Assembly: GCA_018268355.1 (NCBI GenBank)
Contig: JAFDWR010000002.1
Location: 124,001 to 188,000 of the forward strand
DNA length: 64,000 nucleotides
Direction of reading: 5' to 3'
Origin: Armatimonadota bacterium
Lineage (GTDB): Bacteria > Armatimonadota > Fimbriimonadia > Fimbriimonadales > Fimbriimonadaceae
The translations under genes were made by a program, and so were the position numbers. Shown piece by piece: positions 13,354-16,892 of this stretch; the stretch's first letter is position 1, and every line of letters begins with the position of its first letter. The notes beneath the pieces were generated by a model. That model was given only the letters and a program-made list of their open reading frames with translations. It was not told where the DNA came from and ran no database searches.

Positions 13354-15936
13354 TTGCCGCTAGAATTGGCCGTGCTGAGCGAGGCGTTGCCGGGTGGGGT
13401 TCTCACGTTCTGGATGTCTGACATCGAGGGCAGCACCGCGCTTTGGGAGTCGCACCGGGGAGCGATGGTCGAGGCGATCCAGGCTCACGAGGCGACGGTT
13501 CGGCGGCTCGTGAGCGACCTCGGGGGTCACCTCTTGCTCAGCCAAGGCGAAGGCGACTCGTGTTTTGCCGTCTTTGCCGACCCCAAGGCCGCGCTCGACG
13601 CCGCCCTTTCGGCCCACCGCGAGCTCGCCGCGATTGTCGTCGACGGGCGTCCGCTGAAGGTGCGGATCGGTCTCCACGCCGGGTTTGCCGACCTCATTAG
13701 CCACACCTACTTTGGGCCGGAGATCAACCGAACCGCGCGGATTCGGGCCGCTGCGTGTGGTGGCCAGACCCTCATCAGCGAGGTGGCGCGGCAGCTTGTC
13801 CGCGACCGGCTGCCCGCCGGCATCAGCCTTTATGACCACGGCAAGCACACCCTGAAGGACCTTCTTGAGCCCATCGGCCTCTTTGAGGTCCTCGGCGAGG
13901 GGCAGTCCAGTCCGGTCGCCGCGCCGAGATCGCTCGACGTGGTCAACCACAACCTGCCGACCTTCCTTTCGAGCTTCATCGGTCGCCGCGCTGAGCAGGA
14001 CGAGGTGATTGGCCTCCTGCATCATCACCGCCTCGTCACCCTCGCCGGGACGGGTGGGCTTGGGAAGTCGCGGCTGGCCTCGCGGGTTGCCGCTGAGCTT
14101 GCCGACCAGTTCGTCGAAGGCGTCGGCTATGTCGACTTCGGCGACTTTTCGGGCGACGATGCCCTCGGTGAGATCCGTCGCCAGCTTGGCGTGGCTGACC
14201 AGGCCCACTGGCTGCCTCGCGGCGAGACCCTTTTGCTCCTCGATACCTGCGAGGTGGCGGTGGATGCGATCGCGGAGACGGTGGCGACGCTGTTGCGGCG
14301 ATGCCCAGAGCTCAGGGTGCTCGCGACGAGCCGCGAGTGGCTGCGCATCGAGGGCGAGGTGGTCTACGACGTCCCGATGCTCAGCCTGCCCCCTGAGGGC
14401 GCAACGGGTGAACTCGCGACCCTTTCGGATGCGGTGAGCTTGTTCGTCGATCGATACCGATTGCGCCGACCGACCGAGGCGATCAGCGCGGATGCAGTTG
14501 GCAACATCGTCAAGATTGTTCGCCTCGTCGATGGCATTCCGCTCGCGATTGAACAGGCGGCGGCCCAAGCGGCGTTCCGGTCTTTGGCGGAAGTTGAGGT
14601 CGACCTGCGCGACCATCTGCGCGACCTCGCCGGACTCGAGCGCGGCGGCACCCGCCGCCATCGCACGATCCGCGCCTGCCTCGATTGGAGCCTTTCTAGC
14701 CTCACGCCCGAAGAGCAGGAAACCTTCACCCAGCTCGGCGTTTTTCGATCGCCCTGGACGGCGGAGTTGGCGGCCCACTTCATCGGCGGGCGCATGGCCA
14801 AGGATCGCCTCAGCGCGCTCGTGAGCAAGTCGCTCGTGGTGCGTTTTGGTCACACCGAGCCGCAGACCTACCGACTCCTCGATCCGGTAGCGGAGTTTGC
14901 CCGCGAGCAGCTTGGCGCACACCTCGCGGAGATGACCCAAAGGCTGGATGGCGTTGTCCTCGGGTTGGTTCGCGAGGCTCTGAATCGCCCCATCGACGAG
15001 GTCATGCCTGAGCTGAACCGACTCTTTCCTCATGCGCTGCCCGCTTTGGAGCGGCTGCTCGACGCGGACCCGGGGGCCGCGCTCAGCCTCACCTATGCCC
15101 TTCGCTACTACTGCCTTCGCGGCGGGCGTGTCCTGGAGGGGCGCTCGTTGCTGGAGGCCGGATTGCGGCGGGTCGATCATCATCCCGAATGGCTGAGCCT
15201 TTGGAATCTCCTCGGTGCATTTGCGTTTACCCACGGTGACTTCCCGGCCGCGACCAGCGCTTGGACCAAGGCACTTGAGCTGACCGATCCCGCCAAAGAG
15301 CCTTTGCGCGCGGCGGACCTCCAGCACAACCTCGCGGGGCTCCTCATAGTCCGCGAAGACTTTGCGCAGGCGCGCGGCCTTTTGGAGGCGTCGATTGCCC
15401 AGTACGAGGCCCTCGGTGAGGCGAGCAAACTCGCGATGGCCCACGGCACCCGCACCGCGTGGTTCTATCACTCGGGCGACTACGCGGGGTGCGTCCGCCA
15501 GGGCGGCGACGCCTTTGACCGCGCGGAAGTGATCGGCCTGGAGGCACGCGCGACCCTTTGCCTTTTTCTGGTTGCTATGGCCCACTTTGAGCTTGGCAAC
15601 CTCAACGAATCGAGACAGATGCTAGTCACTGGGTTGAACCGGTGGACCCGGGTTCCCGATTCCGGCGACCTCATCCTCGCCCTGATCCTTTCTGCCCAGC
15701 ACCTTGTCGATGAGCGGCCCGATGCCGCAGCTTATTCGCTGGGGCGAATCGATGCCCTCATGGCCACCGAAAGTCTTAAGCTTTCTGATGCTCAGCTTCA
15801 ACAAATCGAGCAAGTCGAGGCCAAGCTCGCCTCCAGTGGCACGAGGCGGCGACGGTCGGCGGGCTACCGGTCTTCGGACCTAGAGGCGGCGCGAAATCTG
15901 ATTGAGGCCTTGACAACTCTGCCCCCATCGGCCTAG
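13354..15936 (+). CDS. Class III adenylate/guanylate cyclase fused to a STAND (NB-ARC) ATPase with TPR-like C-terminus
   Basis: Up to 860 aa. Residues 15-180 form a class III cyclase domain with both metal Asp residues (Asp23 in SDIEGST, Asp68 in GEGDSC) and the Asn125/Arg129 transition-state pair, so it should be active. A STAND ATPase follows, with P-loop GTGGLGKS (232-239) and Walker B LLLLDTCE (293-300). The C-terminal 350 residues are helical, TPR-like. STAND modules usually oligomerise on ligand binding, so this may be a ligand-gated cyclic nucleotide source. The start is TTG 13354 or, more in line with homologue N-termini, GTG 13372. Eleven bases separate its stop from the His/Cys-rich gene. 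Confidence 0.9.
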   Translation: MPLELAVLSEALPGGVLTFWMSDIEGSTALWESHRGAMVEAIQAHEATVRRLVSDLGGHLLLSQGEGDSCFAVFADPKAALDAALSAHRELAAIVVDGRPLKVRIGLHAGFADLISHTYFGPEINRTARIRAAACGGQTLISEVARQLVRDRLPAGISLYDHGKHTLKDLLEPIGLFEVLGEGQSSPVAAPRSLDVVNHNLPTFLSSFIGRRAEQDEVIGLLHHHRLVTLAGTGGLGKSRLASRVAAELADQFVEGVGYVDFGDFSGDDALGEIRRQLGVADQAHWLPRGETLLLLDTCEVAVDAIAETVATLLRRCPELRVLATSREWLRIEGEVVYDVPMLSLPPEGATGELATLSDAVSLFVDRYRLRRPTEAISADAVGNIVKIVRLVDGIPLAIEQAAAQAAFRSLAEVEVDLRDHLRDLAGLERGGTRRHRTIRACLDWSLSSLTPEEQETFTQLGVFRSPWTAELAAHFIGGRMAKDRLSALVSKSLVVRFGHTEPQTYRLLDPVAEFAREQLGAHLAEMTQRLDGVVLGLVREALNRPIDEVMPELNRLFPHALPALERLLDADPGAALSLTYALRYYCLRGGRVLEGRSLLEAGLRRVDHHPEWLSLWNLLGAFAFTHGDFPAATSAWTKALELTDPAKEPLRAADLQHNLAGLLIVREDFAQARGLLEASIAQYEALGEASKLAMAHGTRTAWFYHSGDYAGCVRQGGDAFDRAEVIGLEARATLCLFLVAMAHFELGNLNESRQMLVTGLNRWTRVPDSGDLILALILSAQHLVDERPDAAAYSLGRIDALMATESLKLSDAQLQQIEQVEAKLASSGTRRRRSAGYRSSDLEAARNLIEALTTLPPSA

Positions 15937-15947
15937 GTTGGTCTCAA

Positions 15948-16538
15948 ATGGCGAACCATCACCAAGAACAGCACATTCACTACCACTATCACTGCTCGTG
16001 CGGTTCGGGATGCCAGTGCGGCAAGGGCGGTTGTGGCTGTTCTTGCGGCTGTGGCTGCGCCCAAAGCGGGGTTTGCAACTGCGGCCCGGAGTGCAAGTGT
16101 GGCTGTAGCTGTCACCGGAGTGGAGCCGATGGACGAGGCAACAGTGACATGATCGCGGGCACGATCCAGCCGATTGTTGGGGTCCAAAATCCAATTGCTG
16201 CCACAAGCGCAAGTCCGAAGGTGCTGGTTACATTCACGATCGGCAAGCCAGTCACCGAAGAAGAACTGAAACTCTTCCTCGCCGTTTACGAAGTTCGCCT
16301 AGACCCAAACGCCGGGACTCCTCCGTCTAACTTTACCTACAGGCCCGTACAGGCGAGCGATAATATCAAGTTCCCTTCGGAGTTATCGATCAAGCATGGG
16401 GGTCAGCAGGTCACGGCTGAGATCCAATTCAGCATCTTGCAAAAAACCAAGCAATACGCCGTATGCGTGACGAGCCAGCCAACTACTGACAAGCTCACAT
16501 ATCCCTACCTGATGTTCATCAGTGCGGACGACGCCTGA
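15948..16538 (+). CDS. Uncharacterised protein with His/Cys-rich metal-binding-like N-terminus
   Basis: 196 aa, no family recognised. Residues 4-15 hold six His in a mostly alternating pattern. Residues 16-55 hold fifteen Cys (16, 18, 22, 24, 29, 31, 33, 35, 37, 43, 45, 49, 51, 53, 55), nearly all in CxC pairs spaced by Gly, Ser or Lys, then His56. This density resembles metallothioneins and Cu(I)/Zn chelators. After a Gly/Ser linker, residues 65-196 form a separate, mostly beta-strand-like domain (PKVLVTFTIGKPV) with one Cys. No signal peptide or membrane segment. It starts 11 bp after the cyclase stop and is probably co-transcribed. Metal binding is an inference from composition. Confidence 0.8.
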   Translation: MANHHQEQHIHYHYHCSCGSGCQCGKGGCGCSCGCGCAQSGVCNCGPECKCGCSCHRSGADGRGNSDMIAGTIQPIVGVQNPIAATSASPKVLVTFTIGKPVTEEELKLFLAVYEVRLDPNAGTPPSNFTYRPVQASDNIKFPSELSIKHGGQQVTAEIQFSILQKTKQYAVCVTSQPTTDKLTYPYLMFISADDA

Positions 16539-16562
16539 TCCTTGTCCACCCAAAAACGAAAC

Positions 16563-16594
16563 GAGGGCCGGTGATCTCGCGATCACCGGCCCTC
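16563..16594 (-). terminator. Intrinsic terminator of rpmB
   Basis: Perfect 14-bp stem (arms 16563-16576 and 16581-16594) with a 4-base loop, 25 bp past the rpmB stop. On the minus strand it is followed by a T-rich run (CGTTTCGTTTTT). It may also stop transcription from the convergent His/Cys-rich gene. Confidence 0.85.
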
Positions 16595-16619
16595 GGTCAA
16601 TTCTTCTCAAAGGTCAGGC

Positions 16620-16892
16620 TTAGAGGTTGTAGCCCGGCTTCTTCAGCCAAGCCTTCGGGATCGGGCGGAGGCCACAAGCGACCGAGTTGAACATCGGGCT
16701 CTTGATCACCGAAGCCGCGACGGTCAGCGTGTAGGTGCCGGTCGGGGTCTTCAGACGAATCGTCTGAAGGTTCGGGTGCTGGGTTCGATTCTTGTGGGGT
16801 GCCTTGTACTTCCAACCCTGGGAGTGGCGGTTCCGAATGAACTTCGCCGTCGTATTGCCCTTCTTGCCCGTAACCTGACAGATCTTCGCCAT
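16620..16892 (-). CDS. rpmB: 50S ribosomal protein L28
   Basis: 90 aa. It begins MAKICQVTGKKG, the standard L28 opening, and is basic throughout (HKNRTQHPNLQTIRL), ending in PKAWLKKPGYNL. L28 binds 23S rRNA in the large subunit. The frame stays open far upstream, but the ATG at 16892, behind a GGGGAGG Shine-Dalgarno, gives the right family length. The four zinc cysteines of the C+ form are not present as two CxxC pairs. It is monocistronic with its own terminator. Confidence 0.93.
   Translation of the reverse strand: MAKICQVTGKKGNTTAKFIRNRHSQGWKYKAPHKNRTQHPNLQTIRLKTPTGTYTLTVAASVIKSPMFNSVACGLRPIPKAWLKKPGYNL

Follow-up and report, generated by a model that had tools for sequence, protein, structure and literature searches.

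A His- and Cys-rich orphan protein as a tentative occupant of a variable partner slot behind an Armatimonadota cyclase-STAND gene

Directly behind a gene for a class III nucleotide cyclase-STAND NTPase-TPR protein, the window (the whole stretch of 64,000 nucleotides that was analyzed) carries an orphan gene whose product opens with a run of His followed by a dense array of Cys. We tentatively regard this reading frame, with a confidence that falls a little short of even, as a lineage-specific gene that occupies a variable slot for STAND partners and has acquired a soft-metal-binding tail. On the evidence from sequence set out below, the orphan is probably not a plain metal buffer but a metal-binding version of a fast-changing STAND partner. 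The features of the locus are collected in Table 1.

Table 1. Coordinates of the orphan gene, its parts, and its surroundings (positions within the window)
Feature	Position	Strand	Remarks
Class III nucleotide cyclase-STAND NTPase-TPR protein, 860 aa	13354..15936	+	start TTG; exact start uncertain
Codon of Leu62 in the cyclase	13537..13539	+	19/20 relatives have the purine-specifying Lys (alignment)
Codon of Thr118 in the cyclase	13705..13707	+	20/20 relatives have the purine-specifying Asp (alignment)
Intergenic gap, 11 bp	15937..15947	+	between cyclase stop and orphan ATG
Orphan protein with His/Cys N-terminus, 196 aa	15948..16538	+	start ATG
His/Cys segment, residues 1-56	15948..16115	+	6 His then 15 Cys, 10 CxC
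C-terminal domain, residues 68-196	16149..16535	+	mostly strands by prediction; no known family
TIQPIVGV, residues 72-79	16161..16184	+	resembles the xPIVG motif of other small slot proteins (suggestive only)
Hairpin, 15-bp stem, z -5.5	16562..16595		between orphan gene and rpmB
rpmB (ribosomal protein L28)	16620..16892	-	convergent; landmark common to three other genomes

The unusual N-terminus had been picked out by a sequence-only reading as six His and then fifteen Cys, nearly all in CxC steps, and this description is confirmed. Within residues 1 to 56, His occupies positions 4, 5, 9, 11, 13, and 15 and Cys positions 16, 18, 22, 24, 29, 31, 33, 35, 37, 43, 45, 49, 51, 53, and 55, a Cys share of 15/56 (27%). 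Such a density is far above chance: the peak of 15 Cys in 40 codons marks the sole stretch of the window with at least 9 Cys per 40 codons in any frame, and the top count in 844 kb of related DNA, compared as 7,258 stop-free segments of at least 60 aa from six frames, was 9 per 40 residues. No tandem DNA repeat accounts for the cluster. Because the thiol content is so high, soft-metal binding appears to be the most likely chemistry of the cluster. Inspection of the sequence ahead of it revealed no hydrophobic signal sequence, and the cluster is thus predicted to be cytosolic.

Codon scores over the reading frame are highest for the plus frame among all six, and an antisense ORF at 15880-16212, which overlaps the end of the cyclase gene, has a per-codon score about equal to that of the orphan. 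GC3 is 0.65 versus 0.77-0.82 in the neighboring genes, and synonymous usage is atypical, as expected for an orphan or recently changed gene.

Searches for relatives returned little. The orphan protein had no family match in Pfam, NCBIfam, PHROGs, or PADLOC, and residues 1 to 56 on their own matched no Pfam family. With the whole protein and, as the earlier reading had proposed, the N-terminus and the C-terminus separately as queries, relatives and 291 phylum genomes yielded hits in the orphan's own genome only; the further N-terminal matches in phylum genomes were weak and compositional, many of them with internal stops. Peptide-pattern scans of GTDB species genomes, in which the N-terminus was covered by short peptides only, and of IMG/VR gave no relative. 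A viral DNA-pattern scan for the N-terminus produced 70 matches, which were judged unrelated after their frames had been read, and matches in plasmids and phages were at chance level only. The PDB returned only Resistin-like beta (E 9.7), and no RNA family was matched. Within the databases and genomes searched, the orphan protein is by these comparisons known from one genome only.

For the C-terminal part, the proposal of a beta-rich domain of unknown family holds in that no family was found, while its beta-rich character is only a prediction from low-confidence models. Two AlphaFold2 models consist mostly of strands, with a mean pLDDT of 38 (protein alone) and 41 (6-row alignment), values at which the models are too poor for a fold search.

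The upstream gene is easier to place. It matches Guanylate_cyc (E 1.4e-5), nSTAND_NTPase5, and TPR in Pfam, its cyclase has a PDB relative in the Ma1120 cyclase (E 7e-15), and it is one member of a large family of paralogs in the phylum (45/61 relatives). In alignment with relatives the cyclase keeps the metal residues Asp23 and Asp68 and the transition-state residues Asn125 and Arg129. Positions 62 and 118, the purine-recognizing sites of class III cyclases, are altered; because K62L and D118T replace both purine-specifying residues, synthesis of ordinary cAMP or cGMP by this cyclase is doubtful. Mycobacterial Rv0386 is likewise a cyclase-AAA/STAND-TPR protein with noncanonical substrate residues. 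The domain order of the window's gene is similar to it; unlike Rv0386, it has no detected LuxR-type DNA-binding end, and a partner gene follows it.

The two genes are closely joined. Their 11-bp gap, noted earlier and verified here from the ORF coordinates, is consistent with cotranscription and translational coupling, and the hairpin beyond the orphan gene is likely a terminator separating it from convergent rpmB.

Evidence that this position behind the cyclase is a recurrent slot comes from related genomes. Three of them (G012, G019, and G139), which represent two further genera of the family, have a cyclase-STAND gene, then one or more slot genes, and then convergent rpmB, as in the window. 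The first possible start codon of the slot lies within about 12 bp of the cyclase-STAND gene, the one or two slot proteins begin with stretches that resemble signal peptides, and at E <= 1e-35 each of the three genomes has no cyclase match other than the one on the rpmB side. Among 85 genomes, the 449-aa slot protein of G139 is recognizable in G019 only (42% identity), and from such comparisons the slot product is judged to be fast-evolving.

A reading of the genes that follow some 80 cyclase-STAND homologues turned up, no more than 50 bp behind a number of them, small proteins with an x-P-I motif early in the domain (GYDPIVGVQ in G004, GYVPIVGVE in G033, GYVPIIVEP in G040, GFDPIIGM in G012, and TIQPIVGVQ in the window). 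Of the six cyclases nearest to that of the window, five have such a neighbor (P 4e-4, post hoc). A small gene is absent behind many cyclase-STAND genes. The other strong cyclase-STAND match of the window genome, L174 (G000:C1:650125-652374), is not directly followed by an x-P-I protein. In G040, two tandem proteins with GYVPII and LPGYVPII follow one cyclase-STAND gene; the second gene behind the cyclase, at locus L169 (about +416 to +1421 from the cyclase stop), encodes a protein whose long tail is rich in Lys and Ala and resembles histone H1, a further low-complexity appendage on a protein of this kind.

Other slots are filled by larger proteins. TPR-CHAT proteases start 21-34 bp behind the cyclase-STAND gene at L154 (G016), L162 (G007), and L199 (G147), which suggests that they are caspase-like effectors of the preceding STAND proteins, and a SEFIR-TPR protein (PADLOC bSEFIR, E 1.3e-63) lies 111 bp behind it at L203 (G131). 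The layout recalls bacterial STAND conflict operons, whose effectors are of the CHAT or TIR/SEFIR type, as related slots of the phylum sometimes hold TPR-CHAT or SEFIR-TPR proteins; it differs from them in that the slot gene of the window has neither an effector domain nor a PADLOC match. One slot protein of another genus, the 237-aa L148 (G009), has a signal peptide and then a His-rich and a Cys-rich stretch (HEEMRSCCKHGCSCCCSC), with GPIPITG preceding its domain. By its sequence L148 is a second case of a His-then-Cys N-terminus on a slot protein and is probably exported; as a query it recovered no credible second relative. Recurrence of the pair is accordingly borne out in one respect, in that genes stand directly behind cyclase-STAND genes in other genera and one of them is His/Cys-rich, but the same protein pair occurs nowhere else among the genomes compared. 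The recurrent element, as judged from these loci, is the architecture and not the sequence.

Kinship of the orphan's C-terminal domain to the other slot proteins is only suggestive. TIQPIVGV fits the loose x-P-I form alone, at a score that 4.5% of control ORFs reach, and pairwise scores of the window domain against 17 slot domains are mostly chance. An hhalign comparison with the G004/G033 pair aligned the PIVGVQ region with P 0.006 and a probability of only 6%, and profile comparison with the G019/G139 repeats gave nothing. One motif drawn from the discovery loci, G.{1,3}P[IV][IVTDMP], failed on held-out loci from other families (2/22 versus a shuffle mean of 3.4). A stricter form, [YF][VID]PI, fixed after both the discovery and the held-out sets had been seen, occurs in 4/158 segments from other phylum families versus 1/786 controls (p 0.003); the window's IQPI does not match it. 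An unbiased tetrapeptide test for slot-protein kinship was not significant.

The composition of the tail raises the question of how the orphan relates to metallothioneins. The prokaryotic metallothionein profile PF02069 did not match it, although the bias filters of HMMER may make it less sensitive to a composition of this kind; the same profile found nothing in the orphan's own genome and nothing over the cutoff among 85 family genomes. By the broad definition of a metallothionein, the N-terminus has the expected Cys content (about 15-35%, with CxC), but the protein is not a stand-alone chain of about 100 aa or less, since at 196 aa it includes a separate domain. We therefore consider it metallothionein-like by composition only, and on these matches not a PF02069 member. 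Like SmtA/BmtA (PF02069) and PflQ2MT of Pseudomonas, it combines high Cys, His as likely extra ligands, and a predicted cytosolic location. In contrast to them, it places six His before the Cys block and a domain of about 130 aa after it; known bacterial metallothioneins are short and stand-alone, and the orphan is neither. Folded proteins with His- or Cys-rich metal-binding tails are exemplified by SlyD, HypB, and HspA of Helicobacter pylori. The orphan similarly has a low-complexity, putatively metal-binding end on an ordinary domain, yet its tail is denser in Cys, its body is of no known family, and none of these families was matched. A bufferin-type RiPP precursor processed by an MNIO/DUF692 enzyme was considered and rejected, as DUF692 (PF05114) had no match in the own genome while control genomes were positive. 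No metal homeostasis genes linked to the locus were found.

Alternative explanations differ in what they ask of the tail and of the cyclase. A metallothionein-like buffer that sits behind the cyclase by accident, its tail storing soft metals and its body only stabilizing or localizing the tail, is possible but rather unlikely. The Cys density and CxC spacing are as in metallothioneins, and the niche for such a protein would be vacant because no PF02069 protein was found in the own genome, with none over the cutoff in the family genomes either. His ligands, too, are widespread in the metallothioneins of bacteria and plants (PMC10612145). A body twice the length of the tail is nonetheless awkward for a mere buffer, as are the repeated use of the slot by proteins without a metal-binding tail and the lack of a metal-resistance gene among the scanned neighbors. 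The earlier reading had instead proposed a cyclic-nucleotide and metal-buffering pair, in which nucleotide from the cyclase governs how the metal protein responds, or the other way around. The genes are indeed adjacent, and the four catalytic residues listed above are kept. The idea of a cyclic nucleotide as the shared currency of the pair is not supported, given the loss of both substrate-specifying residues in a cyclase whose relatives retain them almost without exception, and we regard the model as very improbable.

The tail may also serve thiol chemistry or cross-linking, as a redox switch or a disulfide-linked oligomer and not for metal. Regular CxC steps are able to form disulfides, and L148, the other His/Cys-rich slot protein, is the one with a signal peptide; the orphan lacks an export signal, cytosolic thiols are normally reduced, and the adjoining His run has no disulfide role, so that this explanation is quite unlikely. 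As for a young, decaying, or nonfunctional ORF with a Cys-rich part of chance origin in GGC/TGY-rich DNA, the absence of a homologue in any search and the atypical codon usage would fit. A Cys count well beyond the maximum of the 7,258 segments, the superiority of the plus frame, the short gap and putative terminator fitting a real gene, and the lack of a tandem repeat all argue the other way, and there is very little likelihood that the ORF is of this kind.

Under the slot-occupant reading that we favor, the orphan would fill the variable partner slot directly behind the cyclase-STAND-TPR signaling gene. The body of a small slot protein may have gained a cytosolic His/Cys tail, or may have the tail in place of an export signal, and the tail would bind ions of soft metals, for example Zn(II), Cu(I), or Cd(II). 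Once loaded with metal, or once its thiols were oxidized, the tail could put the orphan protein into a different state, and the STAND-TPR protein would read this tail-dependent state or be modulated by it, its cyclase part probably making no ordinary cAMP or cGMP. A bolder form of this proposal, that the phylum's cyclase-STAND genes have a hypervariable slot that here holds a metal-loaded switch, with STAND reading soft-metal or thiol status via its partner's tail, is an unlikely one on present evidence.

If true, it would join metallothionein-type metal binding with STAND-type signaling, which are usually separate. We found no description of a layout in which a cyclase-STAND gene is paired with a fast-changing partner, whether that partner is a CHAT protease, a SEFIR protein, or a small protein that is either secreted or cytosolic, and this layout could be mined for what the numerous cyclase-STAND proteins sense or trigger.
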